In this document: one piece after another, positions 2,870-62,890 of the stretch
Position numbering within the stretch: position 1 is the first letter of the stretch
Layout: each line of letters begins with the position of its first letter
From: Loxodes magnus
Lineage: Eukaryota; Ciliophora; Karyorelictea; Loxodida; Loxodidae
Assembly: GCA_946699065.1 (NCBI GenBank)
Contig: CAMPDV010000041.1
Span: 62,001-126,000 of the forward strand
DNA: 64,000 bases
Direction: 5' to 3'
Notes under the pieces: generated by a model
The model's database searches: none
The model's input: the letters and a program-made list of their open reading frames with translations, nothing else
Told to the model about the DNA's origin: nothing
Translations under genes and position numbers: made by a program

Positions 2870-4444
2870 ATGAGTTAGCCATAAGAATTAATGCATTGTC
2901 CAGTTTGCTACTTAGTTTATAGTCAGGAAGTTGAACCGAGAATGCTGACATGTGGACATACAGTTTGCTTAAAATGTCTAGAAATAATGCTGAAAGATGA
3001 TTTAAAGTGTCCAGAAGATTAATAATCTCTTGCTTTTAAGGATATAAACAATTACCCTAAAAACTACTTGATTATGAAGAAAACTAGAATAATTGCTAGA
3101 AATTTGAGATAAGCAAATCATAATAAAACTAAGAGCTTAAATGACCAGGATTTCGTTTAAAATGATTTCCTAAAGTCTCTTAATAGCATAGTTATTGAGG
3201 GGGAAATAATCGGTAATGTATGCACTATTCACTGTTTATAAAAAACCTACTTCTGCTAGGAAGAAAATAAGTAAATCTGCTAGAGATGCTCACTTGATCA
3301 CTTGAATCACTCAGTCATAACTTGTCAAGAATATCAATAATAAATTAAATCAAAAATTACTTAAATTGAAGCTCTAAGTTAAAGCATTTCGACTAAAGAA
3401 AGCGAAACTTAAAATTCCATTAGTTAGCTTAGCAAAAGTCTAAGAGAGCATAAAATAAGATTAGAGCTAGAAGCTTAGAAATATTTCGAGTTCTTAAAAA
3501 ACTTTGTTATAGATGAAGAAAGGAAAATAAAGAGTTTAATACTGAACAACTAATATATAATTAAGGATAGGATTGTAAACTTAAAAAACTTCGATTTGGC
3601 TAAAGTATAGAACTGAAAAAACTAAGCTAATTCCTTGCTAGATAAATGAAAAATGTGTGTCACTGATTAGATTAACAAATTGGATTAAAGTTAGCCTTAG
3701 CATATTTTAGATTAGGGAAAGGCTATATAAGAGCTTTTGAAATAGCATGAGACTTAAATAAGATTTTGCTAGAATGATATCTAAAATTTCAGAAATTGTG
3801 TAAATTTTCCCTCGTAAGAATCATTGGCAAAGTCAATATAAATTAGGAATTTTAAATAGCTAGAACAGAATGCAGATCCTAGTTTGTAGAATGTTTTTAA
3901 TTAATTTAAGCAATTGTAGGAAATTTAAGAATTTCCTGATTTAGAAGTGCTTAGTCCAAATTTTCCAGGGTAGAGAAAATTAAGTGATAATAATTAACTA
4001 CCAACTTAATAAGATTTAAATGTGATTAATTAAGAAGGAAGCAATAAGCAGCTTATACAGCTATAAAAGTGTTCCATTTAAGAATTTATTACTCTTAAAC
4101 GCTCTAACTCAGGTAAAAACTTAGAAAATGATAAGCTAGAAGAGTTCAAAAATTTAATATCTAATTAAATAAGCCAAACTCCAACCATCCAGCCAAAATC
4201 TTTTGAAAAAGATTCAGTGAAGCAAAAGATTAATTTATCAATGAACAAAAACCCAGATTAAGCTTAGACAAATAAACCTGTAAAATAGCAATCTAATACA
4301 TCAAGTATGCTTAGATTAAGAAAGCCAGGAATGACCGCAAAATTATTAGATATAGAAAAAAATGTTAAAAATAAGGGAAAAGGTATAATTAACCAAAGCG
4401 AAACTACTAAAAGGTCCAATTATGTATTATTGAAGCAATAATGA
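2870..4444 (+). CDS. RING/B-box coiled-coil protein (TRIM-like)
   Basis: The gene encodes 524 residues. An N-terminal RING finger has Cys10, Cys13, Cys28, His30, Cys33, Cys36 and Cys48 (HCPVCYLVY...LTCGHTVCLKC). A B-box-like Cys/His cluster follows near 115-150 (CTIHCLQKTYFC, CQRCSLDHLNHS). A long helical region lies around 160-360 and a polar tail after it. RING plus B-box plus coiled coil is the tripartite arrangement of TRIM-type E3 ubiquitin ligases, so ubiquitin ligase activity is likely, though the substrate is unknown. TGA is read as Trp in VQNWKNQ and DKWKMC. The last sense codon is TAA directly before TGA 4442-4444, so the true terminator could be either codon. No PRY/SPRY domain is seen. 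Confidence 0.8.
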
Positions 4445-11094: not shown

Positions 11095-12228
11095 ATGAAA
11101 ACACTAAGAGGATTGCTTTTTGCTATTTTGCTAATTTCAGCTCAACAATATACATTTAAACATAGCTCAACTTTACTTTAATACACTGATGTCTCACCTT
11201 TAATTAATAGAGAATTTGATGAAGTTGAAACTGATTTAAGTTATTCTGAAGGATGGAGAAATTTCAATCGTCATTAATATCTCATTATTACTTCTTCTGA
11301 TGCTTGGGGTGGAAGAGTAACATGAATTCCATTAGCAGAACCCTTATATTCTTAGGTTATTCTAATGGGACTTCAAAATCCTAGAGGAATTTGCGTAGAC
11401 AAAGAAAGGAAGTTTATGTATGTTGTAGATGAGGGCTACGAAGGATCTCCTGGCTACGTCTATTAATATTTAGTAGATTATGGAGAAGGTTACTTCTTTG
11501 TCCAAAACAGAGATTATACAGTCGTTTATGTGGGTGATACTCCTTAAGATTGCTTTGTGGATATTACTGGAGATGTTTACATTACGGATAGTTTCCATGA
11601 TATTACAAAGAAGGGAAAAATCTACATGCTAAAACTAGAGTCAATCGTAAAAGGAGAAATAAATCCTAGCATAGTTCTAGATGAAGTTACTAGTCCTTCA
11701 GGCTTACATATTGAAGAAGGTATAATATATTTTGCTTGCCTGTAAGGTTTATATGCTATTTAAGAAGGCGTTGTTGAAAAAATAAGTATATAAGGAACAA
11801 AGGGTAAGTTCGTGTGAAAAGGACATCGTTGGATATTTTGAACCTCAAATGATCGCTATTTAAGAGCATATGATTTAATTGAAAAAGCCAATTATTTAGT
11901 TTCAAATAGATTTAATGAAGCTCGAGGAGGCTGCTCATGTGGATATTCTGAAGAAATCTGAGAACCAGAAAATAGCACTACATCTCAATCTCAAATGTTT
12001 CTATAGACAAATTATTCTGATTACGAAGATCTGTATATTGCTGATGAAGAGAGTCACAGAATAGGAATTATAAGAATTTAGAATGGTAGCGAAGAAGAAT
12101 GGCCTCAAAACATGGAGGAATTCTATTTATATATCACTAATCCTATAGGAATGGAATGCATAGAAACTCCTATTGCATTTGGAGGAATTTTAAAGTTTAT
12201 GGCAATTGCAATGATTTTAATATTCTAA
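11095..12228 (+). CDS. Secreted or surface beta-propeller-like protein
   Basis: 377 residues with a clear signal peptide (MKTLRGLLFAILLISA). The body has repeated strands such as NPRGICVDKERKFMYVVD, DCFVDITGDVYITDS, SPSGLHIEEGIIYFACL and YEDLYIADEESHRIGIIRI, in the style of NHL/SMP-30 propellers. Only 19 bases separate it from the LRR/IQ gene. The C-terminus is a hydrophobic segment (LKFMAIAMILIF) directly followed by TAA at 12226-12228, as expected of a GPI-anchor signal or short tail anchor. If TAA were Gln here, the frame would run to TGA 12754 and cross more than 370 bases of the convergent kelch gene, which is implausible. TGA codes Trp in RVTWIPL and IWEPEN. The ligand or reaction is unknown. 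Confidence 0.7.
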
Positions 12229-12377: not shown

Positions 12378-14063
12378 TCAGTTTGATTTTTCTTCTGAAA
12401 TTTTGTCCAGGTATCCTTCATTGTTCACATCTTCCTCTTATTTTTTAAATTCCTCACCAGTCTCTTATAACTTGAACATCATAATAGCAGCATTTTATAT
12501 TTTCATCTTATCTTATATTTCAGTTTCTTAGCTCTAAAACTCTTCATACATTTCTTTCAACTTTACTAAGCATTCCTAATGCTTTTTCTTTTTTTCATTA
12601 ATTTCACTTTCTTTTTCCGAAATTAGTGATTAAATCTTTCCAGTTATTATTTCTCCTAAGGTAGAATCAACTGAAATTAATAATGCTTCCGCTCTTTTTA
12701 TAGTTTCTTCTAGAATATCAATCTTTTAAAAATCTACTTCTGTCTAATTTTATTGAAACTATATTAAATCTTCTTAGCTTTTTTCTCTCTCCATTCAATA
12801 TTTCATTTCGATATTCTTTTTGTAAATTTTTTCTTCTCAACTCCTATCGCTTACTTGCATTCTATTTTCCTTATCTTTAGTTTCAAGATGAGCTTTCTCA
12901 ATTTCCTCTTCTAGTCAGACAGATTTCTATCTAGCTTTATGCAAGCTTTGTTCAAGTTCTGAAATCCTTTTCTTTTATTCCATTATTTATTCACTCGCCA
13001 ATTATACTGATCTCTATGTTTCAGCTATTGATTCTTACTCTTGCATTCATTATGGAATCTTTTCATCTAAGCAGTATACATCCATATTCTTAGAAGAAGT
13101 ATCAAATCCACCTACTAAAAGTATTATTTCTTTTTCTCCTTTTCATCCTGAACTAAATCCCATTCATAATCTAGCAGATGGGATACTCCCTCCTATATAT
13201 GGAGTTGTTCAATGGTTTTCAGACATATCTAAGCAAAAGAAATCTCTTAAAGTGTATTATTTTTCTTATGTTCCTTCTTTTACGGATTCTTAGCCTCCAA
13301 ATATAACAATATGATTTTATATAACTGTCATACTGTGAAAAGCTCTTGCTCCTGGACCTTTTCCAAGAGTTTAGGGTCTAATTCAAGTTTTATTACTTGG
13401 AGAAAAAACCAAAAGTTCTGATGTATATCCCATTTATGTAATTCCACCAAACATCCACATTTAACCTCCATAATTTACTGAGGCCATTCCTTTTCTTGCA
13501 CTTGGAGCTGAACCTTTAGCATTTCTTATTTTGCTTCATATAATACCTCCAATGTCTCCTACTGTATTATTGTCAAGTTAAGAAATATCGAGAGTTCATA
13601 AATCGTCTAGAAGCAAATTCTCTGGAGCACTTGTGCCTCCAAATATGATAATACTAGAGTTTTTAATCCTGACTCCTACTGAGTGTTCTCTACCAGATGG
13701 ACAGTCAAGCATAAAAACATGTCTTCATATCATTCCTTCAAATTCTAAAACATACATATCTTACAAACTGTGCCTCTTGTTGCCTTGTCCCGCATAAATA
13801 AACATTCTTTTTTAATCGTCATCAAGCCATGAAATCTAATAACATCTAGCCGAAGGAATTCTCATTCCTTTTGCTTCTACAAACTATCAATTTTCTGTTT
13901 CAGGATCAAACAAAAAGACTTCATTAACCCTAGTTTAATTAATTCCACCAAAGAGTACAAATCTCTTAAGATAGTTGGAGTATAGTCAAGAATGCCCATT
14001 TCTTGATGTAGGATATTTGGAATTAGAAGGAGTTTAGAGTTTAGTTCAATTTAATGCTTACAT
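12378..14063 (-). CDS. Kelch-repeat protein with C-terminal coiled coil
   Basis: 561 residues. Kelch blades fill residues 1 to about 325, with diagnostic FGG strands (RFVLFGGI, SSIIIFGGT, QMWMFGGIT, NHIVIFGGQ, IILLVGGFD) and GHSW, RKGMA and SARLWMGF connectors. From about 330 to the end it is a highly charged coiled coil (AETQRSVQLASEQIMEQKKR). Kelch propeller plus coiled coil occurs in many protist scaffold proteins; I infer a protein-interaction role. TGA is Trp in LNWTKL, GHSWLY and ENHWTT, all normal Trp positions in kelch repeats. The start ATG 14063 follows an upstream in-frame TGA by two codons. It ends at TGA 12378-12380 and converges on the secreted propeller gene. Confidence 0.88.
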
Positions 14064-14099: not shown

Positions 14100-15052
14100 T
14101 CATTTCACCATCTAATCATTTATCTCATTACTAAGCAGCTTCTCTTAGTTAGGCAATTATCTTATTTTAACACATGGGTCTAAATACGGTGCTATGTAGT
14201 ATTTTGAGAATAGGTATAAATAGTGAGCCATAAGCATTCCAATCACTATATCTCCTGAGTAATGAGATCTCAGAGTTAGCATTGAACTCATCTATAGTAA
14301 AAGTACAGCTATCGAAAAGAAAAATCAGTTTTTTCTTTTTTCTTCTCAATGTTCTAAAGCGATTAGTGTTGCAATACCACAGTGTCCTGAGTACATAAAG
14401 TCATTAGATTTTGCATATGCTACTAATAGTGAAGGAAATCCTGGAAAAAATCATATGTATCCGGAAGGTCAATTAAGCAAAAAAAAGTTCTAAATAAGAG
14501 ACTTACAAGAATGGTTGATCTTATAGAATAAAATAGAATAGCGGCTGCGCCAAGTCTTACGCTTGTAGCTTTCGTGACATAAATTAAAATCATTGAAACT
14601 GCTAAAATATCAATCCCTAGGCTTGAGCTAATAATCATAATAGCAGCTGATTCATTATTTTTCATGAAGTATTAATTTATTCCATCTGTAACTTAAAAAA
14701 AGTAGTCATAAACGCACTCTTCTTAAGAGACTGTCAGTTAACCTAATATGGTTTTAAAAATGAATGTTCCCAGCAAAGCAACAGCAACAAATGCAATTCT
14801 CACAGATAAAATAATTTTTTCAGTCATTTTTGAAAAAAGCTAGAAAATAATAATTGTTAATGCATTTAAACTAATTCACATATTTATTGCTTTTATACTT
14901 ATTAAGTCACTATCTTGCTATATTTGGAAGATTAATTTTAGTGGCCTTCTTTCATATAAAATAATATTAACTGTTGTGCTCAGAGTCATGCTAAAGGTTA
15001 TTTTTTTAATGTTAGTGAGTAATTTATTTAGGTGTCTTAAAGACAAAATCAT
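14100..15052 (-). CDS. Sphingomyelin-synthase-like PAP2_C lipid enzyme
   Basis: 311 residues in two exons (14507-15052, 14100-14489). It is a multi-TM protein of the sphingomyelin synthase / PAP2_C family. The catalytic pieces are both present: SGHCG near residue 217 and RSHYSGDIVIGMLMAHY near 258, supplying the His-His-Asp set used to transfer a phospho-headgroup between lipids. The 17-nt intron joins hydrophobic TILNFFLL to NWPSGYIWFFPGFPS. TGA is Trp in NMWISL, LNWPSG, YIWFF, EHWEE and KNWFF. It starts at ATG 15052 and stops at TGA 14100-14102, 36 bases from the kelch start, head-to-tail. The headgroup (choline, ethanolamine or another) cannot be told from sequence; ciliate ceramide-phosphoethanolamine synthesis is one option. 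Confidence 0.82.
14490..14506 (-). other. Intron, 17 nt (SMS-like gene)
   Basis: GTAAGTCTCTTATTTAG on the minus strand. Phase 0. Its removal joins two otherwise out-of-frame membrane segments and restores the PSGYIWFF block ahead of the catalytic SGHCG. Confidence 0.85.
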
Positions 15053-16571: not shown

Positions 16572-17727
16572 TCAAGCTTTATTAGATTCTTCTGCATCTT
16601 GGTTTATTTTTTCCTTTGTGCTAATATTTTCAGAATCACTAGTCTTTGTCAGATAATTTTCAATAATAACATGGTGAAGCTCAACAATCTCTTTAGATTA
16701 TTACAAAGAATTGCTATTTTCAAGTTCTATCTTCTCACTTCTAATAGAATCATTCTGCTCACTTTCAAATTTTTGTATTTATGCTTCTTTAGCGCTATTT
16801 TAGAATGATCTATCTTTTCTATTTTTAAACATTATTATAAAGATACCTAAACAACATATAATCGTCCCTAATGGAAAGCAGATTTTAGATTTATCGTTGA
16901 AAGTATCGAACTCCTTTAAAACGATCCCTCCTGTCAAAATATTATAAACAATCATACTTGATTAAACAATAGGAACCATTTACATTGCAGCGTAGTATTT
17001 CAAACCAGCATTTAGGAAAAATAGATGCAAAAACACGGAAATCAATGCTGAAACTGGTAAAAAAAATGCTGTAGGATGGTAATCGAAATTGTGCTAACCT
17101 TAGCATTAAGTTTTAATAAGCTCCACACTTGATTTAATGCATAATCCTGTTATTCCTGATTGAAAACCTGTAAAACTTCCAAAAGTAGCAAGAGGAATTT
17201 TACCTAAATATCGTTCATACAGCAGGCCTTTTGATATGATTTATCTTGAAAGAACGTATAGTGATATGTAAACTATATAGCCTCCTATTATGTAGAGCAT
17301 TGCTTCTGGCTTTGAGAAAAGTAAGTCTATATCCTAAAATAAAAATCCTTACATTGAAATTTAGCTATTTTGTAGTTTTTGTACTGTAGAATTCTGAGAG
17401 AATGGCACCAAAGCACATTAAAGCAACTGCTAAAATATCTTATTTATCTAATGACTCTCCTAGTATTTTCCAAGCTAAAAGGATGTTATAAACCATTGTC
17501 AAAGCGGAAATAGGACTTAAAGTACTTTAATTAGCCATAGAGAAAGAAGCAACAGCCAGCAATGCAGACACAATTTTACTACAAAGCCCTATAATTCATG
17601 GTGCTCTAAGTACAACAATTTTAGGGTTTAATTTATCATTATGAGCTTTCTTCATTAGAACAATCCCCAATGCAGTTAGAAAAGTAGCAATGCACATTAA
17701 AAGAATCGCTGTAGTCCCTTATTGCAT
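16572..17727 (-). CDS. NIPA-type magnesium transporter / DMT superfamily
   Basis: 378 residues, two exons (17353-17727, 16572-17333). About nine hydrophobic segments occupy residues 5-325. Family-typical blocks are VLRAPWIIGLCSKIVSALL, ASFSMANQSTLSPISALTM, ILLAWKILGESLDK and LHLFFLNAGLKYYAAMYMVP, matching NIPA (non-imprinted in Prader-Willi/Angelman) proteins in which TLSPISAL and LGESL recur. NIPA proteins move Mg2+ and related cations. The C-terminal 60 residues are polar and acidic and presumably cytosolic. TGA is Trp in RAPWIIG. Several in-frame codons precede the chosen ATG, but the first TM begins directly after it. It ends at TGA 16572-16574. Confidence 0.8.
17334..17352 (-). other. 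Intron, 19 nt (NIPA-like gene)
   Basis: On the minus strand it runs GTAAGGATTTTTATTTTAG. Splicing joins LNFN to DIDLLFSKPEAMLYIIGG and keeps the transporter frame open; without it the second half is out of frame. Confidence 0.85.
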
Positions 17728-18868: not shown

Positions 18869-20041
18869 TCATTTTCTTTTAGGAACCAAACTCAAAGTTC
18901 TTTCTTTAAGTTCCTATTTTATTAATTGTATCTATTCGTGTAGTTAATCCAATACATCGTGCTTTTCATAAAGTCTACGAAGTAAGTAAGGAACTAATTC
19001 TTAAGTTGGACCCCAAGGCATATACTTAAAATCAGGTAATCCTTTTTAGATAATTTAATGAGCTGCATAATCTCTCATTCCATATACTTAAGCAAAATAG
19101 ACTCCTTTCTTCCAGTTTTCAATACCTAATTTAATTGTGTTTAAGTTATGCGAAGCTAGGAAAAAGGTACCTTTTGAATCGACATTTTCAATTATCTTTA
19201 GCATGCTTGAATTATAGCTATTGTTAGTTAATTCGTAGTTATCCCATATTGGTGATTCATAGTTATGTTCTCCTGCTAATCTTCTTTCCTCCTTCATATA
19301 AGCTCCTCTTACTAATTTAACTCCTAATTTTTCATTATTTTATTTAGCATCTTCTAAGTACTAAGAAAGCTATGAAGGCGTCTTCTTAAGATAAGCTTAA
19401 AATGTAGTAAGTAAAGTTCCTTTATCTTTGTTATATTTTTTTTGGATGGTTCTAGTAATCAACTTAATAGCAGGCTCCAAATAAGTTTATTCAGCATCTA
19501 CTAAAACTTTAACATTTCTTTCGTTCCCTTCATAGGCTATTTATTCAACTAAATCAAATGATACCTTGACTTAGTTTCTATTCAACTCACTTAGATCTGA
19601 GTAATTTTTAATAGAGTATTTGTTTATTTCTTTAGTCAGCTCTTTTAAGTCCTAAGCTAGGAATAACCCTGTTAGCTTTATAGCAACAGCTGTTTCTGCG
19701 TTGACTTGATGTTAAAGCGTTTTTATAGTTTAGACTGTAATTCTTTGGTTTTTTTTCAAATCATCTAGTGATCTGCTATACTCTTCACAGTAATTTAAGC
19801 AGGGAAGTATTTTCTACTTCAGTAATTCATTGCAAGTATCGACTGCTTAAAATAAATCCTTTCCAGCTGAAAAAATACTACCAGCGGATTATTCGACTAA
19901 GTAATTAGTGAAGGTTTATTTGAAGTATTTATTACTAAAAACTAGCAGTTTGTCTACATTTCTAATAAAATAAGGCTTTGTGCATAATTTGTTTACTAAG
20001 AAGGCTTTAAGCAGTCATGAATTACTCTTATACTTCAGCAT
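18869..20041 (-). CDS. Proline dehydrogenase
   Basis: 390 residues. It matches eukaryotic proline dehydrogenase (PRODH), the FAD enzyme that oxidises proline to pyrroline-5-carboxylate in mitochondria. Recognisable blocks are VKVLVDAEQTYLEPAIKLIT (family LVDAEQTY), LVRGAYMKEERR near residue 245, ESPIWDNYELTNNSYN and FLASHNLNTIKLG, and a final GMRDYAAHQI. These carry the FAD- and proline-binding Arg/Asp/Glu residues of the TIM barrel. The N-terminus (MLKYKSNSWLLKAFLVNKL) is basic and hydrophobic and could be a mitochondrial presequence. No intron. It starts at ATG 20041 and ends at TGA 18869-18871. Most Gln residues are TAA/TAG. Confidence 0.9.
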
Positions 20042-31444: not shown

Positions 31445-31730
31445 TAGACTTAACAAATTATAATTCCAAAATTAAAGCATTCATTAATTACTCTTACTTA
31501 TATGTCTATTTTCTAACTACATCATGCATCTACTACTCTTCATTTCCTACTTCTACATACTTGATGCCAAAACTGCAAATTAATAGTAAAGAAATTAGCT
31601 AAACTCTATAACTGAGGAGTAGCTATAATAATAAATAAGAATTTGAAGAGTATAGGAAAGTTATGCTTTCTTATTTAAGAAAGAAGGCTTTCATGGGAAT
31701 TTAAATAGAGGGATAATAATTTATTTAGAA

Positions 31731-35623: not shown

Positions 35624-38227
35624 ATGTCTTTACTTTGCTGCTGTTCAAAATAAAAGAAGAAGAAGAAAATGTTTGGGAAAATGGCCTCTGTGCCAACTTT
35701 TTCGGTGCTAATGAAAAAGTCTTAATGAAGGTTTACTACGCAGGAGTTTGATTCTCTAAGCTAAAAGTATTATAATATGTGTGGAGAGAAGTAAGAAGGT
35801 ATTGATAAATAGTCTTTTCTAGATAGTATGGGCTTACTTGGACTGCCTTCAACAAAGGTATTAGGAGAGAGAATGTTTGATGCTATGGATACAACTGGTA
35901 AAGGAATCATTTTATTAAAGGAATATTTAGATTTCATGGAAATTCTTTTTCATGGTAGTTTAGAGTAGAAAGCAGAGTTCCAGTTTAAACTGATAGACAG
36001 ACATAAATTGAAAAAAGTTTCGTATGCTGATTTTGAAGATTTCATGATATCATTAATATCAATGGGAGCTAATATATATGGAATGAAGTTAAATTTACAG
36101 GAAAAGAAAAAGGAAATAAAGTGCTTATTTAATAAAATAGATGCTAATAAGAATGGAATTATAGAACTGTAAGAGTTTAAGGATTATTGGAGCCAAAACC
36201 CATAATACACCAACTTTATGACTCTTTTGCAAAAAGGAATTCAAATTGACCAGTAGGATTCCTCATTTGAGGCAGTTGATAAGAATTTCACAGACTTTAC
36301 GGAAGAGATTTAAAATCTAATTGACTTCTTAGAACAATAGATTCCTCAAATGAAATATCAGACTAGTAGAAGTAATTATACATAGAATCAAAAATAATAC
36401 AGATTGAACTAATAAAGCTAAGCTTAATTAACAACTGACACTACTTATAGAATTAACAGTGATAGATAAATGCAATTGCAGGAAAACAACTTTTCTCTAA
36501 CTTTCTGTTAGTAAATTAGATAATCTCCTAGTTAATTTCCAAATAGGGTAACAGGTGATATCGATAATCTAGAAATAGAAAGTTAATCCCATATCAATAC
36601 TGCGAAGAAAGAAAGTAAGGTAGATTTGGATAGTATAAAGTTTACTATAAAGAAAAAAGATAAAAAAAGTAGCTTCTCTTTATAGTAAAATTAGTCGAAT
36701 GAAGAAAAATAAGTATAGTAAGTATAGTAAGATGATTTAATTAAGATTGAAGAAGTATAGCCATAAAAAAAAACTTCCAATAATGAATCACAACTGAGAG
36801 ATTTCTGACTTTAGTTTAACAACTAAAATTCGGTCTAAAGTGAGATAGCAAATAACCCTGCAGATTAATTAAATTTAGTAAAGAATAGACTTCAAAAATT
36901 AGAAGAGGCTGCAAGTAGCACAGCTAGGACAATATAAAATCATTAAACGAACTCATAAAATAGTTAAAAGCTTGAAGATTAAGAGAGGCAAAGAAAGATA
37001 GCTTAATTTAATGTTCCTAAGTAGTTACATAAAATTAAAACGTTTTAAAAACATATTTCGAAATAAAAAAAATCGCTTCATACGGCAGGAGAAATAGTTA
37101 CATTTGGTGATGAAAACTGAAACAAAATGGTAAACATTATGCTAGGAATATAAAAAGCAGTACAAAGCGTGGAACATGAGCCTGAGTTTTAATTAACAAA
37201 TTAGCATTATAAAATAAAGTGTAAACAGGATTTATTAACTAAATAGTTTGGAAGTTAGAAGGAATATCAGTCTAAGTTATCTACATTTCAAGATTATGCT
37301 CCAACAGTATTTAATAAGATAAGAAAGCTATATGGAATAGAATCGGAGTAATACATTCATAGCTTAGGATGTCAGAAGATAATAGTAAGTTTTTTTATTC
37401 AGAACTCATTGATAACTATTGACATATCATCACTCAATCAACTAGTATCTTCTGGTAAATCAGGTTCCTTACTCTTCTTTTCGGAAGATGGAAATTTTGT
37501 AATAAAAACAATTTCAAAGAACGAATTCACATTTTTCAGAAGCATACTTCAAAATTACTATCAGTACTTATCAAACAACACTAGTACATTAATTGCTAAA
37601 ATATATGGCTGTCATAAGCTTATATTTAGAAGCTAGCATCAAAAGGATATAATTAGGTTTGTAGTCATGAACAACATTTTTAGTGGTATTTAAGTCCATC
37701 AAAGATTCGACTTAAAAGGTAGTACATATAAAAGATAAGCAAGCTTGGAGGGAAAATAAGACCCTACAATTGCTTTATAAGATCTAGACTTTTTAAATAT
37801 GAAAATTTAAATTAACCTTGAAAATGATAATAAAGCTAGACTACTTGAACAAATCTAAAATGACTCTAAATTTTTCGAAGCTAACTAGATAATAGATTAT
37901 TCACTCTTGCTTGGAATCCATTATGTTGAAAAACAACTGGAGGAAGGAGAAAACTCGCCAATTTTGCCTGAAAGGATAATACCAGTTGACGAAAACGGCT
38001 AATTTATGAATCCTAATGTTTTCAAATCAGCGGATAAAAAGTAATATTATATAATGGGAATAATCGATTTTCTGACACACTGGGGGTAATTTTTTATTTT
38101 TAGTACAAAAAAGAAATTAGAGAGCTTTTCTAAAAAATTAATAGCTGATAAAATGTCTATTTCATGTGTACCTCCTGATTTCTACGCTCGAAGATTTACT
38201 GGATTTATTCAGAAGATTATAATATGA
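35624..38227 (+). CDS. EF-hand / phosphatidylinositol-phosphate kinase fusion
   Basis: 855 residues in three exons. The start MSLLCCCSKQKKKKK carries a Cys cluster and poly-Lys, suiting lipid attachment. An EF-hand module lies at about 30-200, with loops DTTGKGIILLKEYL and DANKNGIIELQEF like neuronal-calcium-sensor/calcineurin-B pairs. A Gln/Ser-rich linker runs to about 430. A PIPK domain (PI4P 5-kinase type) fills about 470-855, with KLYGIESEQYIHSLG, SSGKSGSLLFFSEDGNFVIKTI, FDLKGSTYKR, IIDYSLLLGIHYVEK and VPPDFYARRFTGFI. Two 18-nt introns interrupt the kinase. It should make PI(4,5)P2 at membranes under Ca2+ control; the control is inferred from the fusion. It ends at TGA 38225-38227. Confidence 0.87.
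37385..37402 (+). other. Intron 1, 18 nt (EF-hand PIPK)
   Basis: GTAAGTTTTTTTATTCAG. It is a multiple of three, so the frame is kept either way; its consensus ends and the match to kinases after removal support splicing. Confidence 0.75.
38086..38103 (+). other. Intron 2, 18 nt (EF-hand PIPK)
   Basis: GTAATTTTTTATTTTTAG. Removal turns IIDFLTHWG plus a Phe-rich insert into IIDFLTHWG plus TKKKLESF, the normal continuation of PIP kinases. Confidence 0.8.
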
Positions 38228-43860: not shown

Positions 43861-46669
43861 ATGGAAAATTCTAGTTTTGATAATACATAATTAGAGTTTC
43901 TAGAATTAAGTCCTGTGGCTAGTTTACGAGCTGATAATTTTGCAGTATAAAATAGGAATGTGAAGAGCTAAGAGTTTCCAAACGAAGCCTTAATTTACAA
44001 AAATAAGTTAGAGAAGTTAAAGACTGAATATGCTAATTCTTAGCTTTGATGAGATAATTAAAAGCAAATCTTTGAATAGAAGGAAAAATACTTATTAGCC
44101 TACTTAACAGAAAAGGAACAAGAAGTTTATAGATAAATTAGCTTCGAAACGAAAGTTTAAAGCACTGAATAAGATGTTAATTCCAGTTCTTATTCACTTC
44201 CTATAATTAACGAATGCAGCGAAAACTCGACTTCTCCTGATTAGAATCTTGAATAATAATTAGCTATAAACAGGCATAATCCTATTTTTAAATCAGAGTA
44301 AGCAAAATATACAAATAATTCTTTTGAAAATATCCTAAAAACTCACTAAAAACTGAAGCAGGACCAAAACTAGAGCATACAAAACAACAGTAGAATTATT
44401 AAGGAGCATTCCAAATAATAAAGCTGAACTTAATCTCCTTTGAACTATAAAGATTATGAAGATAACAGCTTCTAAAATGATTAACTACAAGAAGTAATAA
44501 ATAAAGAGTATTCTATGTAAGAAAAATCTTTCAGCTGATGTGAATCCTTAAATGAAACTCAAAAGGACTAAGAAGCAAAAAATCATTTCTTAACAGAAGA
44601 AAATTCAGAATAGAAGACAATAGGAGAGTTTGGTAGTATGTCTGATGAAGAAAACTAAATTGAAGTTATTGACTTTCATCATGCACCTCCATCTCCTAAT
44701 AAATTATGAGATCTAACAGCCTCTATAAACAACTTTAACAGGCTATTAAACTAATCTCATTGGAGCTAATGGAGTTCAACTATAACCGACTCCTTTACTA
44801 ATTAAAATAACAGCAGGACATTTTTTTCTTCTACCTTAAGTTTTAACAATTCATAAAATTAAGGATTAGAAGGACTGAGAAGTTAAAGATCTAGTAATGC
44901 TAATGACAAAAATTAGTTTGAAAATGTGAAGAGAGTTGAAATCAGTTTGCTAGATATAGGCCAAAATCAAGTCAAGTAAAATGAAATATAGAGACAATGA
45001 AAGGAAATAAAGCCAAAGGATTTAATCGATAGTTTTCAGTCAGAAGATACAATTAAAGATAGTAATATGAATATGAACTTAAGTCAAGCTTTATTGACTG
45101 AAAGAAATGAAGAAATAAATGATCCAAAAATTTTTTGAACTCATGACTCAAGACTCGATAAAAAGAATTAGATTGCAATGTTTGAGGAATTCTTTATACT
45201 AGGTGTAGAAAAAAATAGAATCATAGAACAAGAGGAAGCTATTAAAAATTAAGGAAGCCTTTTAAAACCTTAGGTTTTATTTAAATGGCCAAATCTACCG
45301 GAGAATCAAGATTGGTAAGTTAATAAATTTTTATTATAGTCCAAGAAGAAGAATAGTGAGTGATTTCTGCTTTCCAAATGGATGTAGAATAAAACCTTTA
45401 CTTGTCACAAAATCTTAAAGCGAGCTAAAAGAACTTCTATATGGTCAAGAACATTTCCTTAGAGATAGTCAACATTTTGTTTTCACTCTTTCAAATCAAA
45501 ACGAAGTTACTAATCAATTACCATAAAATTACTATAGTTAAAAAATGTATTGCATTGCAATTAAGATGGATGATACAACAGTTCAGGATATAAAAACAGG
45601 ACAATTTGATTTTTAAGGAGAGTAATGGATATATGAAAAAGTCATATGCATAATGTCTCGTTTTCCATTTATCGAGATGCATTTTGAAATTCTCCATAAA
45701 ATAATGACGATGAACAGATGCTTTAAATTGTAATTACTGGCTGAGCATTAGAATCAATAGATAATAGCCTCAAACTCTGAGTCAATCACATAAAAAATTC
45801 TTATTTAATAAGAACAAGAAAAAATCACAAAAGCAGAGAAGTAAATTTTATATGATAATTTTAAAAAGCTTTTGAAGCTTTACTATGAAGCTACACCACC
45901 AACATTAGATAGCTTCATTCAACTAGATACTCCATTAGGCAAAATAAAGTACTAATTTTATGAAAATAGCGATGTTTATTTTTATTGCGGGCCTCTTTTT
46001 TCTGTTCTTACTCTCGAAAATTTCTTTTCTATTTTAATAGCTGTAATGCTTGAAAAATCGGTCGTTTTTATAAGTGAAAATGCAGGCTTGCTAAGTAGTG
46101 CAGTGTAAGTTTAATAATTATATAGATTGGGAATAGAAGCATTAATGAGACCTTTTTTATGACCACATGTAGTTATTTCAATTCTTCCTGAAAACTTAAT
46201 AGATCTACTAGATGCTCCTATTCCTATCTTAATGGGTGTTTAGTAAAAATAGCATTACAAGTAATTCAAATCTATCTTATAAGTAAAGCTCGATGAGTCT
46301 GATCCTTAAAAGCAAATAAAAAATAAGAAGATATTGAAAGATGTAGAAGAGCCCAACGCGAATGACTTGAAGGGTAAAATTTCTAAGTACTATCCTTTCA
46401 TCCATAAAAAAACAAGACAAGTATGTTTCTTACCTGATAAAGCTTAAAAAATAGCTATACAGGAAATTGTAAAGCTCATTTTAAACTACTAAAAGTCTTT
46501 ATAAAGACAATTCGATAAACTTTTACAAACCAATTAAAGTAAAGAATGGGTAGATTTATTGAACCTTAAGCGTAAAATAGTAGATAACTTTACTAATAAT
46601 AAAGACAAACTGTTTATGGAGAAGTTCGTTAGTACTTAGATATTTGTAAGCTATGTATCCTGTCTTTGA
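43861..46669 (+). CDS. DENN-domain protein (probable Rab GEF)
   Basis: 927 residues, two exons. The first 470 residues are acidic, Asn/Gln/Ser-rich and probably disordered. From about 480 a tripartite DENN module appears: uDENN (VSDFCFPNGCRIKP, QHFVFTLSN, YCIAIKMDD, CIMSRFPFIEMHFEIL), then cDENN (YFYCGPLFSVLTLENFFSIL, VMLEKSVVFISENAGLLSSA, MRPFLWPHVVISILPENLID, LDAPIPILMGV), then a helical dDENN part to the end. DENN proteins exchange nucleotide on Rab GTPases in vesicle traffic. A 25-nt intron restores NQDCPRRIVSDFCF. TGA is Trp in RPFLWPH, an invariant position. It stops at TGA 46667-46669, followed by TAA. Confidence 0.87.
45315..45339 (+). other. Intron, 25 nt (DENN gene)
   Basis: Begins GTAAGTTAAT and ends TTATTATAG. 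It shifts the frame into uDENN; without it the DENN domain is out of frame. Confidence 0.85.
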
Positions 46670-48336: not shown

Positions 48337-49425
48337 ATGGGTAATTGTAATTGCTTCCGAGGAACTGAAGAAACACAACATCTCAAAAACGAAATTTCCT
48401 TTTCTGGTAGAGAAGGTAAAACTGTCATTACCAAAACCAAATTAACAACTTAACAAAACTCTTTTAGTGACAATATTCTTATTTAAGCCTGTGCAAAATC
48501 CTTTTTGTAAATGATAAAGCATCAGTAATAAAAATAGCAGGCTTATGATTAAATTAAGATAAATTAAGGACTAACTATTTAAGAATTGTAGGGACCTTTA
48601 CCTGATTTTTCTAATAGTGCTACATAGTAAACTGAGGCTAAACTTGGACCCTTTAAATGAGAAGAATTAGAATGTGATAATGTTAAGGTAGAAGTAAAAA
48701 ATCCTGTTGGCTTAGATAATTTTGCTGCTATTTATATAGGTGAATGGTCTGAAGAAGGATTACGACATGGAAAGGGTACATAAATTTGATCTGATGGAAG
48801 TAAATATGAAGGATATTGGAAATGCGACAAAGCAAATGGAAAAGGAAGATTAATCCATGGAGATGGTGATGTGTATGAAGGGTAGTGACTTGATGATAAA
48901 GCAGATGGACATGGAATTTACACTCACATGGATGGAGCCTAATATAAAGGATAATGAAAAGAAGATAAATAACATGGCTTTGGAGTTGAAACATGACCAG
49001 ATGGAGCAAAATATGAAGGAAATTATGAATCGGGAAAAAAGCATGGAAAAGGAAAATTTCATTGGGCTGATGGAAGTATGTATGAAGGTGAATTTGATGA
49101 TAATAACATACATGGATAAGGTACTTATTCATGGGCAGATGGTAGAAAATATGTAGGAGAATGAAAAAATAATAAAATGGATGGCAAAGGAGTTTTTACT
49201 TGGATGGATGGACGTTGTTATAGTGGAGATTATATAGATGATAAAAAACATGGATTTGGAATATTTAAATGACCAGATGGCAGATAGTACGAAGGAATGT
49301 GGCGAGATGGAAAATAGCATGGAAAAGGAGTGTACATTACAGCAAACAATGAAAGAAAAGAAGGAGAATGGAAAGAAGGCAGAAGAGTAAAATGGAATAT
49401 AAAGGAAAATGATGATCATTCATGA
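48337..49425 (+). CDS. MORN-repeat protein, predicted N-myristoylated
   Basis: 362 residues. The start MGNCNCF has Gly2 for N-myristoylation and Cys4/Cys6 for possible palmitoylation. About residues 130-350 hold nine MORN repeats of the form YEGQWxxxKxHGxGxxxWxDG. TGA codes the repeat Trp many times (EGQWLDDK, KGQWKEDK, VETWPDG, VGEWKNNK, IFKWPDG), some repeats using TGG, which is the cleanest proof of TGA=Trp in the window. MORN proteins bind membranes and act in ciliary, basal-body and cortical structures; lipid anchoring fits. No intron. It ends at TGA 49423-49425 just after DDHS, so the same codon is sense and stop in one gene. Confidence 0.92.
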
Positions 49426-51620: not shown

Positions 51621-51997
51621 TTTTAGTTTATTTTTATAATTTATAACCTCATTCTAAACCTTTCTTTCTACTAACTTAACCATTAAACTAAAATCCCATT
51701 CTATTATTTTAACCTTCAAAGTTTGCAGCAACCTAAATTTATATCAGTTGAATTGCAAAACTTTATTCTTTTCTCTCCAGATATTTTCAAATAATCTTTA
51801 TCATTAGCATTTGATAAAATATTACTCAGATTTAAGCAAAACTTACAAATTAAAAGCAAACTGCTAATACAATATTTTATTATAAATTGCTTATTCATTA
51901 TTAACTTAAAGTAGCATTCTATTTAGACTTTAAAGAGTAAAACAGTTGTAAGATTAACTTATAAAGTAGTTTATTTATTAAATATTTTTTAAGCTTA
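51621..51997. other. Spacer with possible short secreted frame
   Basis: On the minus strand 51716-51898 encodes 60 residues without any TAA, TAG or TGA. They start with a hydrophobic leader (MNKQFIIKYCISSLLLICKF) and have several Cys near the end (GCCKL). The frame is the same as that of the PTPS-like gene upstream. It may be a separate small secreted protein or chance. Confidence 0.3.
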
Positions 51998-52591
51998 TTA
52001 TGTGAAGATATGACAGTAGGATGCTTCCTATCCTTTAGATTCAGCTACAGTTACACATAACTTGCTTATATTTCTTTCTTCTATAAGATTTTTCAATTCA
52101 TTTATAAAATGCTCAACTAAATATTTTGCTAGACATTCTGCTGAACTTTAATCAATAGGCAATAAAATGCAATCTTAAGCTGGAAATTTAAATTCACTGT
52201 TGTCACATTTGCAAAAAATGCCTATACTTTTACTAGTTTCTTCCAAAATAATATGCTAGTTAAGCTTAGGAATTATCAACTTAGAGTTAAACTCCTTACA
52301 CTTCTATCTCACTTTTTCCTTTATAATTCCAAAGTCAACTACATAAAAATCCTATCCTAATTGAGAAGTTTCCAGTTATACTCCTACTTAATAGTTATGA
52401 CCATGTAGAGTTTCTCTCTCCTTCTCGTTTACAACGAAATGAGCACAATTGAACTTAAAATCCTATTTCTTTACATTAAGCTAATACATTTTATACCTTA
52501 TTTATTCTTCACTTCTACACTAAACTAAGAATACCCTAATTTAAATTTTCTATTCGTATATTAATTCAAATCCTTATTTAGCTATGAACAT
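51998..52591 (-). CDS. 6-pyruvoyl-tetrahydropterin synthase / QueD family
   Basis: About 197 residues. The pterin-synthase fold is marked by FKFNCAHFVVNE (first zinc His) and LHGHNYQVGVQL (two more zinc His), DFYVVDFGIIKE, SSAECLAKYLVEHFINELK and CVTVAESKGQEASY with the late substrate-binding Glu. The usual catalytic Cys just before HGHNY is absent; the segment reads NEKERETLHGH with Glu residues instead, as described for apicomplexan PTPS-III enzymes in the folate pathway. The start may be ATG 52591 or 52489. The domain ends just before two TAA codons (51995-52000), while in-frame TGA comes only at 51716-51718, so TAA probably stops it. The substrate is a dihydroneopterin-type compound by family. 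Confidence 0.72.
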
Positions 52592-56443: not shown

Positions 56444-57990
56444 ATGTCAGAAGAGGATATGTAAAATTCTAATGAATGGAATGAAGAAGAATTTGAAGAA
56501 TCTGATTAAGATTAGTATTAAGAGAGTCCTGTTACTAATATTGTAACCAGTTCAAGCAAGACTAAAACACTTAAGAGGGAAGAAGTGGAAAAATTAATGA
56601 AATAAATGGTCTAAAAAGTATAAGAAGTGTTGTATATTGAGTAAGATGAGGTGTTTTTATTACTTTAGTATTACAACTGGAGTGATTAAAGGCTTTTAGA
56701 TAATTATTACTTATAAACTGACTAAATAAGAATAGAAGCTGGAGTCATTCCTACTACTGTTTCTAAGAAGAAGGAAAGAGTTAAACTAATTATAAATGTA
56801 GAACATAAGTAGATCTGTCCAATTTGCTATTCTAATTAGTGTACTGAATGCCTTAACTGTAATCACTTATTCTGTAAAGAATGCTGAACTTAATATTTGA
56901 TATCTTAAGTAAAAAAAGGTCCATAATGTGTTAGATCATATTGTCCAACTTGACAGTGCACTGTTTATGTTCCTGATACGATGTGAAATTCTTATTTGAT
57001 AGACCATTAAGAATACTTGGAAAAGTATAATTAATTTAGAATTCAATCATTTATAAGCTTCAATAAAGCTATGCGACCTTGTCCTGCACCTGGGTGTGAA
57101 ATCACTAGTATAAATCCTGATCTTAATGCAAAGGAAATAGATTGCTCTTGTGGGTTAGTGTATTGCTTCTAATGCTTACAAGAATCCCATAGACCTACAA
57201 GTTGCTAAACGATAGCAATATGAAATTAGAAAAACAGCATTGAAAGTGAAAATATACTATGAATCGCTGCTAATACAAAAGTATGTCCAAAATGTAGAAA
57301 ACCAATTGAAAAAAATTAGGGCTGCAATCACATGACTTGTTAAAAAGCTGCAAACGGATGTGGGCATGAATTTTGCTGACTTTGCTTAGGAGATTGGACT
57401 GAACATGGATCTAAAACAGGAGGTTATTATTAGTGCAATAAATTTGAATAATAGGAAAAAGAAAAGGTTAAAAGCCAAGTAAAATATGAAGGGCAGAATT
57501 AAAATACAAAGAGTGAAATGGAGAGATATTTGTGATACTATGAAAGATATAATAACCATAATAAAGCTCAAAATTGTGCAACTAAATAATTAACGGAAAT
57601 TGATTAAAAGATACAAAATCTTCATGACTTAAAGAATTTTCCAATTGACGAAGTAGAGTTTTTAAAGGAGGCTTAAAAATAAGTAATTACTTGCCGTAGA
57701 GTGTTAAAGTCTACATATGCTTATGGATTCTATTTGCAGAATGAAAAAGAAAAGAATATGTTTGAATTTACTTAAGCAATGCTAGAAGAATATACTGATG
57801 CATTACATGAGTTACTCGAAAAAGATTTTAGTGTATTTTTAAATGTCAATGATCCTGACAAAAAACCATTTTATCATTATAAATCAGAGTTAACAAATTA
57901 CTATACAGTCACCAAAGTGGTAAGTTTTTCTATATGTAGTATTTCAAAAAAATGGTAGAAGGAATAGAAGATGGCCTTACTGAATAGTGA
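56444..57990 (+). CDS. Ariadne-type RBR E3 ubiquitin ligase
   Basis: 508 residues, two exons. Acidic N-terminus (residues 1-40), a UBA-like helical part, then the RING-IBR-RING unit. RING1 is at about 125 (CPICYSNQCTECLNCNHLFC). IBR is at about 200-260 (RPCPAPGCE, CSCGLVYCFQC). RING2 is at about 285 ([20 protein letters not shown] ... CGHEFCWLCLGDWTEHGSKT). The Cys in HMTC is the catalytic one that takes ubiquitin from the E2. A helical Ariadne domain follows (YYERYNNHNKAQN, ASTYAYGFYL-like KSTYAYGFYL). TGA is Trp in KECWTQYL and EFCWLCLGDW, with other Trp as TGG. A 20-nt intron restores the last helix. The last sense codon is TAG before TGA 57988-57990. Confidence 0.92.
57920..57939 (+). other. 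Intron, 20 nt (RBR gene)
   Basis: Begins GTAAGTTTTTC and ends TATATGTAG. Splicing gives the acidic end YFKKMVEGIEDGLTEQ and a TGA stop; unspliced, the frame runs on into spacer. Confidence 0.85.
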
Positions 57991-60370: not shown

Positions 60371-60820
60371 TCACTTGGCTGTCATCACTCTCACAAACTC
60401 TTCGTAATTTAAGCATCCATCTCCATCTAAATCTGCTTCTCTTATCATTTCTTCTACTTCTGTCATTGTTAAATTATCTCCCAAAGTATTTAGAACATGC
60501 TTTAACTCTTTTGCTGATATTAGTCCATTATTGTCTCTGTCAAACACTTTAAACTCTTCTTTTAGTTCTTCTTCCTAGTCGCATTCTTTAATTTTCTTTC
60601 CCATTAAGCTCAAAAATTCTTGGAAGTCAATATTTCCATTACCATCAGCATCTACTTCATTAATCATATCTTCAAGTTCTTTTTCTGAAATGTTCAATCC
60701 TAAAGGATGCATTACAGTACCTAACTTTTTGGTAGTGATAGTTCCATCTCCATCCTTATCAAACAAATTGAAAGCTTCTTTGAATTATTCTATCTACTGT
60801 TCTGTTAATTAATCTGCCAT
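60371..60820 (-). CDS. Calmodulin
   Basis: 149 residues, the canonical calmodulin length, starting [20 protein letters not shown]. All four EF-hand loops are intact: [39 protein letters not shown] and DLDGDGCINYEEF. The C-terminus FVRVMTAK is normal. Differences from textbook calmodulin include MHPLGLN after loop 1 and [11 protein letters not shown] in the central linker. Many Gln are TAA/TAG. It should bind four Ca2+ and regulate targets; the IQ motifs of the LRRIQ1-like protein at 7518-11075 are one possible partner. It ends at TGA 60371-60373. Confidence 0.95.
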
Positions 60821-62080
60821 AAATTATTTTACAAGCCCTCTATAAATTAATTCAAATCTAGCCCTTTTAAGTAAATTTCAACTACTTAATTAAGAAATTT
60901 AAGTGTTCCTAGTAGATGCAAATACTATATAAAAGCTGAGTAAAAGAGTAAAAGCTATAACTTCTCCTTTAATTTAGCGCTTTAGATATATAAGCTAAAT
61001 GAATCCTATATAGTAAGGTATTTGCTATAGTTATATAATTGAAGTATAGAAGCACTCAAGTGATCTTTACTTAATTCCTGTTTCCTATTTCAATTCTCTT
61101 TTGGTGCTTTAAGAATGTGATCATCATTCTAAGTACTTTAATTCACTTTTTATCTTCTACTACTATGTCTACCCTTAAAAATTAGTAATACCTTAAGTCT
61201 TTTTAGTTAAAATCAAAATCTCATAAATAAGACAGTCAAATATAAATACTAGCTAGCTAATTAATCTTATGTATTTTTGACTAGCTCCAAAGCAAACTAG
61301 AATGGTAGATAGCTATAATATAAGAATATTAAGAAAGAAGCTTATCAGAGGTATTAGCTAGAAACAGGATAGTAACATTTAGCGCTATTAATTCTTCTTT
61401 TTCTAGCTTCAAACTTATATATAAGCTTTGCTATTTTTAAGGTTAATCGGTTATTCATCGAAACCTAGAAATGCGAAACCCTAGATCTTTGATTCAACTG
61501 TTTATATTATAAATGCTGAATGGATAATGCTAGCTTTTAATTAGATACTAGTATTGGTAGCTATAGTAGAGACGATAAACCTTACATTTAATCTTACTTA
61601 AGAAAAATCTATTTGGCAGTAGTTAAAAATCCTATTGAAAGGCTAAATAATCATGAAGCAAATTAAATAATCAGCAGGATTTAAAAAGGATAAAGATGGA
61701 CCAAGACTGTCTATTAGACAAGTCTCAATTATAAATACATTCAATGCTTAAAAAAGATCTAAGGAAAATTCTAAAATAGGTAAGAAGATAGATTTTCCCT
61801 TATAAGATAAGTACCTTTAATACACCTTCTAGCTTATTATATATTAATACAAAAGGGATAATTATATCCGTTAGAAATGCTAAATAACTATCAAAAATAG
61901 AATAAGTAAAGAGATACTCAAGTAGGTTTAACCAGTTAACATAAGTAAATTTCATAGAACAAGTTAGGAAAGATTTCTAACGGTAGAATTAGTTTGAAGA
62001 TGATAGTTTTGAATAAATTTAGCAAGTATTAAATAGAAGGAAAATAGAAATTAAAAGAATTAATTAATTTAAATAAAATC
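60821..62080 (+). other. Spacer with a possible membrane-protein gene
   Basis: Apart from 61302-61997 I see nothing here. That frame has 231 codons and no internal TGA, ending TGA 61995-61997. It has a basic start (MVDSYNIRILRKKL), a hydrophobic segment (WIMLAFNQILVLVAIVETIN) and a basic C-terminal half (AGFKKDKDGPRLSIRQVSII). G-codons are about 16 %, only a little above background, so it is a candidate rather than a call. Confidence 0.35.
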
Positions 62081-62890
62081 ATGGACAAATACACTCGAAG
62101 GAGATAGCTGGAATAAGACTAAATATTGGATAATGAAATAAGGTTATCTAAGATTTCGTCTATTAGCAGAAATGTTGAAATTGCTTATGATAAATTTAAA
62201 AATCATTAGTCCATATGTTTGAGAGCTGCTGGTCAAGCTATTCCAAAGGCTGTTTAACTTGCAGAGGTTCTTAGAAGGAGAATCAAAGGACTTCATCAAA
62301 ATACCAGTATTTAGAAGGTTGAAATTGAAGATGTTTATGATCCTCTTGAAGAGGGACTAGATTAAGTAAAAATTTAGAAGAAGTTATCTATTCTATTGAT
62401 AGAACTCAGCAAAAACTAACTTGATCCTTAACTACCTGGCTATTAGGCTCCACTTCCAGATGAATAAGTTTAAGAACTTACTGAGTAGTAAATAAAAGAA
62501 CGCCAATTTAGACCTTATAGAGGAGGATAAGGATAATACTTCTAGAGAAAAAATGAAGAGGGATATAATGAAAGTCAAGAAGGAAGATTTTAAAGAAGAG
62601 GCTTTAGAGGAGGAAGGGGAAGAGGAAGAGGAAGATTCTAGGGAGGAGAAGGGGGAAGAGGGAGAGGAAGAGGAAGATTCTAGAGAGGAAATTTCTAAGG
62701 ACAAAGAGGATATGGAGAATCAAGAGGACAAAGAGGATATGGAGAATCAAGAGGACAAAGAGGATATGGAGAATCAAGGGGACAAAGAGGATATGGAGAA
62801 TCAAGGGGACAAAGAGGATATGGAGAATCAAGGGGACAAAGAGGATATGGAGAATCAAGAGGAAGATATCCACAAAGATTAGAGTCTTGA
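62081..62890 (+). CDS. Alba-domain protein with RGG repeats
   Basis: 269 residues. An Alba fold (Rpp20/Mdp2-like) spans about 20-115, with ISSISRNVEIAYDKFKNHQS, CLRAAGQAIPKAVQLAEVLR and NTSIQKVEIEDVYDP. The Gly-Gln-Ala-Ile/Lys stretch is where Alba proteins contact nucleic acid. From about 155 the tail is Arg/Gly-rich (FRGGRGRGRGRFQGG), ending in six copies of GQRGYGESR. Alba with RGG tail is typical of protist RNA-binding proteins in translation control and RNP granules. The tail offers sites for arginine methylation. It starts at ATG 62081 and ends at TGA 62888-62890. The reverse strand of the repeat also looks open, which is a shadow. Confidence 0.88.
62699..62860 (+). repeat. Six tandem 27-bp units inside the Alba gene
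   Basis: Unit GGACAAAGAGGATATGGAGA plus ATCAAGR, repeated six times without gaps (6 x 27 = 162 bp). Units differ only at the wobble base of the final Arg codon (AGA or AGG). Each encodes GQRGYGESR. Confidence 0.95.

Follow-up and report, generated by a model that had tools for sequence, protein, structure and literature searches.

The reading frame of 363 codons at positions 48337 to 49425 of a 64,000-nucleotide (nt) stretch of DNA (referred to here as the window; positions 62001 to 126000 of contig 41 in an assembly of 705,730,643 bases and 7,843 contigs that was also searched as a whole) encodes a MORN-repeat protein and contains TGA at residues 108, 151, 184, 207, 220, 276, and 312 as well as at its terminal codon, 363. 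This raises the question of whether one codon can specify an amino acid within a gene and also end it. A codon with both meanings shows that whether translation terminates can hinge on closeness to the end of the mRNA. The reading that we put forward, with a probability of about 0.94, is that the window is macronuclear DNA of Loxodes magnus translated with the homonymous genetic code of table 27, in which UAA and UAG stand for glutamine and UGA stands for tryptophan inside genes and for stop at their ends. This code has already been published for L. magnus (PMC11441545), and the additions made here are modest: genes that seem to end at UAA, arrays of tRNA-Trp(CCA) genes, and gene-to-gene differences in the use of UGA.

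TGA in the MORN gene

When ten MORN repeats are set out, six of the seven sense TGA codons lie on the two tryptophan positions of the repeat, one of them with an offset of one residue, and TGG occupies these positions in other repeats; W108, also encoded by TGA, lies outside the repeats. The initial annotation, which held that the repeat tryptophan is written TGA at least five times and TGG elsewhere, is borne out by this layout. Pfam family PF02493 matches nine stretches of the protein, and MORN1 structures were the first match (2.2e-43) when every TAA, TAG, and TGA in the repeats was masked as X. Termination at TGA, as claimed earlier for this gene, agrees with a fall in both GC content (from 0.31 to 0.20) and codon score (from 11.8 to −5.3) past the terminal TGA. 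Across the assembly, many MORN matches lack stop-type codons and others contain TGA; those without may be DNA of other organisms or genes with little UGA.

Sense meanings of TAA, TAG, and TGA in conserved domains

The residues standing opposite each stop-type codon were tabulated for LIS1 and the RBR/Ariadne E3 ligase (Table 1), as the initial annotation had proposed. For each protein, 120 homologs (the best listed of 3,877 for LIS1 and of 303 for RBR) were aligned without the query, which was then added with all of its TAA, TAG, and TGA codons masked as X; the homolog searches used a query translated with table 27, and the choice of homologs thus depends partly on that code. Summed log-odds over the 854 columns of the two proteins returned glutamine as the best residue for TAA (35 columns) and TAG (8 columns) and tryptophan for TGA (10 columns, 7 of them mainly Trp). 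As a control, the standard meaning was returned for 49 of the 51 sense codons with at least three columns; CAG, one of the two failures, had no clear best residue. Seen from the side of the conserved columns, 21 were at least 70% Trp, with TGG in 10, TGA in 7, and other codons in 4, and 7 were at least 70% Gln, with TAA in 4, TAG in 1, other codons in 2, and CAA or CAG in none.

The claim that TGA stands at invariant tryptophans in LIS1 and RBR holds fully for the former and in part for the latter. The three sense TGA columns of LIS1 are 100, 100, and 77% Trp among the 120 homologs, and four of the seven in RBR are 100, 100, 100, and 96% Trp, whereas the remaining three fall in columns that are mainly other residues (H 44%, F 62%, and F 62%). 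Substitution at less conserved sites would account for these three, and tryptophan is still the best residue in total. The claim that TAA and TAG encode glutamine within conserved domains stands: RBR has TAG292 (98% Q), TAA444 (100% Q), and TAA413 (76%) in glutamine columns, and the LIS1 piece has TAA2 (81%) and TAA250 (78%), with the other TAA and TAG columns of the two proteins not being glutamine columns. For the kelch gene, the homolog search gave no match at a strict E-value of 1e-30. When X-masked proteins were aligned with structures of ARIH1 and of kelch proteins, tryptophan likewise stood opposite several masked codons.

In 18 genes of the window, several of them counted from a convenient in-frame point rather than a proven start, TGA makes up 53 of 113 Trp codons and TAA or TAG makes up 538 of 747 Gln codons; TGA accounts for 0.66% of all coding codons in these genes. 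The DENN gene has only one of its eight sense TGA codons in the second coding segment, which carries the DENN domain.

Table 1. Coding sequences and termination sites located in the window
Feature	Position	Strand	Remarks
LIS1 CDS	174..1352	+	TGA at 3 conserved Trp positions; terminal TGA 1353-1355
RING-finger gene	2870..4438	+	Ends TAATGA 4439-4444
NHL gene	11095..12225	+	One NHL repeat match (E 0.00021); 4 sense TGA, 7 TAA, 3 TAG
TAA, probable NHL stop	12226..12228	+	Next in-frame TGA 176 codons further
Kelch-repeat gene	12381..14063	-	14 sense TGA, 2 TGG; stop TGA 12380-12378
PAP2_C-type gene, last part	14103..14468	-	3 sense TGA; stop TGA 14102-14100
NIPA-like transporter (part)	16575..17213	-	Stop TGA 16574-16572
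Proline dehydrogenase (part)	18872..19894	-	Stop TGA 18871-18869
EF-hand + PIP5K gene	35777..38224	+	Stop TGA 38225-38227
DENN gene	43861..46666	+	Putative 25-nt intron 45315-45339; 8 sense TGA; stop TGA 46667-46669
MORN-repeat protein CDS	48337..49422	+	362 aa; 7 sense TGA (Trp), 8 TGG, 14 TAA + 6 TAG (Gln)
MORN stop TGA	49423..49425	+	GC and codon-score fall; next in-frame TGA 180 codons further
TAATAA, probable PTPS stop	51995..52000	-	Solved relatives end there; no TGA near
6-Pyruvoyl tetrahydropterin synthase (PTPS)	52001..52489	-	4 TAA + 6 TAG sense, 0 TGA
Reductase-type gene, 824 codons	53207..55678	-	19 TGG, 0 sense TGA; stop is first TGA, 53206-53204
RBR/Ariadne E3 ligase	56444..57984	+	20-nt intron 57920-57939; 7 sense TGA; ends TAGTGA 57985-57990
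Calmodulin-like EF-hand gene (part)	60374..60838	-	Ends MTAK, then TGA 60373-60371
Alba-domain gene (part)	61850..62887	+	27-bp repeats; stop TGA 62888-62890

Gene ends in the window

Twenty segments were scanned for the first stop-type codons past their coding part, and two were dropped because no homology fixes their ends, which left the 18 genes. TGA comes first at the end of 13 (LIS1, the IQ gene, the NIPA-like gene, proline dehydrogenase, the gene at 31575, PIP5K, DENN, MORN, the reductase-type gene, EF-hand, Alba, PAP2, and kelch), and TAA or TAG directly precedes TGA in 3 (RING, the gene at 41529, and RBR; two TAATGA and one TAGTGA). Together with the sense meanings given above, TGA at the end of 16 of 18 genes upholds the earlier assignment of the window to the karyorelict table 27. 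The two others, NHL and PTPS, have TAA without a nearby TGA; TAG without an adjoining TGA was found at the end of none of the 18. The two dropped segments reach TAA at 59372 (+ strand) and 6170 (− strand) with no TGA for a further 42 and 91 codons, respectively, so that 4 of the 20 segments have TAA and then no TGA for 42 to 176 codons. Homologs agree with the ends of LIS1 and RBR: 119 of 120 LIS1 homologs end within five residues of its TGA, and 44 of 120 RBR homologs end within five residues of the spliced RBR end, with the RBR of Stentor ending at the identical residue, after which TAGTGA follows here.

Codon use changes ahead of the stops. In the last 20 codons of the 18 genes (360 in total), TGA was found 0 times versus 2.5 expected (P = 0.175), TAA 8 times versus 16.3 expected (P = 0.035), and TAG 6 times versus 8.4 expected (P = 0.586); in these counts the TAA or TAG before TGA in RING, the gene at 41529, and RBR was taken as part of the stop, and otherwise TAA rises by two and TAG by one. 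The published account of L. magnus describes UAA, like UGA, as depleted over roughly 20 codons ahead of stops and UAG as not depleted (PMC11441545); the depletion seen here has the same direction, with only TAA below a P value of 0.05. GC content drops from 30.5% in coding sequence to 16.8% over the first 50 nt past the stop (18 genes), similar to the published L. magnus values of 33.5 for coding sequence and 18.6 for the 3′ part (PMC11441545).

A wider scan of 274 kb found an in-frame TGA between 12 codons before and 15 codons past the coding end in 33 of 52 coding segments. It was rejected as a count of TAA stops, because at least 4 of the 19 other ends were set too far upstream: a TGA follows further on in PIP5K, RBR, the IQ gene, and a mitochondrial-carrier-like gene.

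Probable TAA stops of the PTPS and NHL genes

PTPS was identified by comparison with solved structures and has a Pfam match to PF01242 (4.4e-17). The X-masked protein aligned with 2a0s (E = 1.2e-32), which we take to be the Plasmodium enzyme, up to chain residue 175 of 180. Six residues separate the end of this alignment from the TAATAA, and the matched chains, of 180 and 181 residues, have five to six residues left at that point, although the end of a chain in a solved structure need not be the natural one. All frames are free of TGA for 34 codons; the first in-frame TGA lies 94 codons further, and a GT-AG intron of 15 to 40 nt placed close to the end would in no case bring a TGA to within 25 codons. 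GC content is 0.15 in the 60 nt downstream, inside the range of the other 3′ flanks (0.12 to 0.27). The NHL protein, by inspection, begins with a signal-like sequence and has a hydrophobic tail at its C terminus, and its gene, too, seems to stop at TAA; an indel inside the tail would bring a TGA within about 10 codons. Each of the two genes has one match in the whole assembly, so that PTPS has no second copy for comparison.

These ends suggest that TAA is probably also a minority stop, which would make its assignment to glutamine incomplete. A limited literature search for stop-UAA in karyorelicts found no paper. Seah et al. 2022 are said to mention a small minority of karyorelict transcripts with a UAA stop. 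A passing remark that karyorelicts use all stop codons both ways appears in PMC12153298 and PMC11687900, and the published UAA depletion before stops would fit residual UAA termination.

Uneven use of UGA among genes

The share of TGA among Trp codons ranges from 14 of 16 in the kelch gene to 0 of 19 in the reductase-type gene. When codons were permuted among the 14 genes with Trp, the observed spread was never reached in 20,000 trials, and without the reductase-type gene the same permutation gave a P value of 0.010. If the reductase-type gene used TGA as often as the others, 0 of 19 would arise with a probability of 1.4e-7, a value for a gene that was picked after looking. Base composition does not explain its lack of TGA, because TAA or TAG supplies 28 of its 41 Gln codons and its share of G at third positions is ordinary (0.21). 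A bias in third-position G was also considered as a cause of TGG use in general and was rejected (Spearman 0.04). In Blastocrithidia, highly expressed genes avoid reassigned codons (PMC12153298), and by analogy we favor the explanation that the reductase-type gene may avoid UGA through high expression.

tRNA-Trp(CCA) genes and the proposed decoding of UGA

A motif for the tRNA-Trp anticodon (CCA or UCA) had 125 matches in the genome, with a reversed control giving none. The 100 matches listed are all CCA: an array on contig 67 accounts for 48 and another on contig 148 for 51, and the one other match, on contig 12, was not recognized as a tRNA by ARAGORN. The motif restricted to UCA had no match in the whole genome, so that the 25 unlisted matches are CCA as well; a diverged tRNA-Trp(UCA) gene would escape this motif. 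This search had been proposed in the initial annotation together with one for suppressor tRNAs of glutamine, for which a single pattern was run with no match, so that the tRNA part of the proposal is covered in part. No tRNA was found in the window and 210 kb of flanking sequence.

The two arrays (contig 67:482323-491202 and contig 148:155464-169180) are tandem, with spacings of about 187 and 241 bp. ARAGORN confirmed tRNA-Trp(CCA) in the five copies that were fetched and read. Their anticodon stem is shortened to 4 bp, since its uppermost bases do not pair: these are A and C in one array, U and C in the other. The remaining copies were seen from the anticodon loop onward. The minimum free energy fold is not a cloverleaf, though ARAGORN accepts the tRNA. 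A tRNA-Trp with a 4-bp stem has been reported for Loxodes (PMC13092985), and in Blastocrithidia and Condylostoma the 4-bp stem lets tRNA-Trp(CCA) read UGA (PMC13092985, PMC12153298). UGA would accordingly be read as tryptophan in L. magnus by tRNA-Trp(CCA) with the shortened stem and not by a UCA tRNA, a step that is partly deduced. According to a published model (PMC4967479), UGA would stop translation close to the poly(A) tail, where the release factor prevails. In a minority of genes, such as PTPS, UAA also appears to be accepted as a stop near the end of the transcript.

A more far-reaching version of this scheme, which we regard as tentative and as having somewhat less than even odds, is that UGA and UAA are both homonymous, with UAA as the working stop of specific single-copy genes (e.g., PTPS) and UAG as sense only, that the reading of UGA depends on a high dosage of tRNA-Trp(CCA) with the short stem, supplied by the two tandem arrays of approximately 100 genes, and that some genes purge UGA as tryptophan completely (0 of 19) as its reading costs translation. 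The genes ending at UAA, the uneven use of UGA, and the tRNA-Trp arrays offer concrete sites at which competition between release factor and tRNA can be studied, and RNA-seq data already exist for L. magnus (PMC11441545).

Source of the DNA and comparison with known codes

Circumstantial evidence from intron length and a tree of RBR supports a karyorelict ciliate as the source. The RBR intron of 20 nt is backed by homology, the spliced end agreeing with homologs, and the DENN intron of 25 nt is deduced from frame continuity; with two introns in all, these lengths fit L. magnus, whose introns average 19.3 nt with 93% of at most 25 nt, unlike the 15 to 16 nt of heterotrichs (PMC11441545). A self-trained codon model for finding introns was rejected, as decoy splice signals gave two to four introns versus three for GT-AG. 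The named best matches of LIS1, and likewise of RBR, include Stentor and Blepharisma. In a tree of RBR built from 47 chosen rows, the window's protein lies in the half with Stentor, Blepharisma, and Tetrahymena, apart from Symbiodinium and Durusdinium, and outside the 17-row clade that holds Stentor and Blepharisma, on a long branch that leaves its exact place unsure.

The window shares with table 27, described for Parduczia and Loxodes, the sense meanings of UAA and UAG (Gln), both meanings of UGA (Trp and stop), short introns, and short AT-rich 3′ flanks, and it tends toward the same scarcity of UGA and UAA before stops. It differs in the apparent UAA stops of PTPS and NHL, which table 27 does not list, and in the share of TGA among coding codons, which is 0.120% in Parduczia transcripts (PMC4967479) and 0.66% in the 18 genes here. 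Condylostoma magnum (table 28) also has sense meanings for all three codons and no tRNA-Trp(UCA) found; there, however, all three codons are stops, and coding UGA is at 0.042% (PMC4967479). Blastocrithidia likewise reads UGA with a 4-bp-stem tRNA-Trp(CCA) and has a homonymous stop, but its UAR codons mean Glu and UAA is its sole stop (PMC12153298). All three stops are reassigned in Amoebophrya sp. ex Karlodinium veneficum. A 4-bp-stem tRNA-Trp is known there too (PMC13092985); that organism is a dinoflagellate, whereas the RBR of the window clusters with the named ciliates.

Alternative explanations

One reading, in which the in-frame stop codons are marks of pseudogenes or sequencing errors under the standard code, has nothing in its favor beyond the presence of the codons; with 538 of 747 Gln and 53 of 113 Trp codons being of the stop type, with these codons on conserved Gln and Trp columns, and with domains recognizable over their length, its chance is negligible. 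A Condylostoma-type code (table 28) in a heterotrich, with all three codons as sense codons and regular stops, has identical sense assignments and could draw on the two genes of 18 that seem to stop at TAA, on the two TAATGA and the one TAGTGA, and on the Stentor RBR homolog ending at the residue just before the TAG of RBR. It is nevertheless very improbable, since the commonest end is TGA, the two introns located (20 nt, backed by homology, and a putative 25 nt) are longer than the 15 to 16 nt of heterotrichs (PMC11441545), and RBR falls outside the Stentor and Blepharisma clade (Condylostoma has no named row in the tree). Slightly less remote, and still improbable, is the decoding of UGA by a dedicated nuclear or mitochondrial tRNA-Trp(UCA), by anticodon editing, or its removal by mRNA editing. 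A cognate tRNA commonly serves this purpose in other codes, and a tRNA-Trp(UCA) is encoded by ciliate mitochondria (PMC4967479); against this stand the absence of a UCA motif match versus 125 for CCA, in a search that a diverged, mitochondrial, or edited tRNA would escape, and the case of C. magnum, which has no nuclear UCA gene and no significant anticodon editing (PMC4967479).

Another alternative accepts table 27 and holds that UGA is the sole stop, with the TAA ends of PTPS and NHL explained by an overlooked intron, an indel in the assembly, or a C terminus that extends further. The L. magnus paper, in the passage that bears on this point, names UGA as the only stop (PMC11441545), and the corresponding passage of PMC10553269 names only UGA as a karyorelict stop. 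Indels are possible in the assembly, as with the frame switch beside a run of eight T in the PAP2_C-type gene, where no intron fits; the NHL frame would meet TGA shortly after an indel in its tail, and the single match of each gene in the assembly provides no confirming second copy. We nonetheless consider a sole UGA stop unlikely, because the TAATAA of PTPS stands where the chains of its relatives end, no intron of 15 to 40 nt or other frame supplies a nearby TGA, and the GC content downstream is like that of other 3′ flanks.

Other genes of the window

Pfam scans under code 27, which covered part of the stretches of the window, some of them in a frame other than the coding one, found LIS1-like WD40, RING, IQ, NHL, kelch, proline dehydrogenase, ANF-type receptor, PIP5K, DENN, RBR/Ariadne ligase, reductase-type, Alba-domain, and EF-hand matches as well as NIPA, LRR, and PAP2_C pieces. 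The reductase-type gene matches FAD_binding_6, NAD_binding_1 (below the cutoff), and, weakly, Cyt-b5, and we take it to carry DOMON and b561 regions as well. The EF-hand gene at 60374 to 60838 is presumably a calmodulin, MTAK being, as we assume, the usual end of that protein. Upstream of the last part of the PAP2_C-type gene, the frame is broken or shifted, and counts were limited to that last part; the frame changes beside a run of eight T at about 14470 to 14500 (− strand), no GT-AG intron joins the frames, and an assembly indel is possible at this site. Between 22320 and 25250 (+ strand), the ANF ligand-binding domain of a receptor precedes hydrophobic stretches that contain several TGA codons in frame. 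The end of the Alba-domain gene contains a 27-bp repeat (62698 to 62863; 6.1 copies with a 98% match) that encodes repeats of GQRGYGESR.
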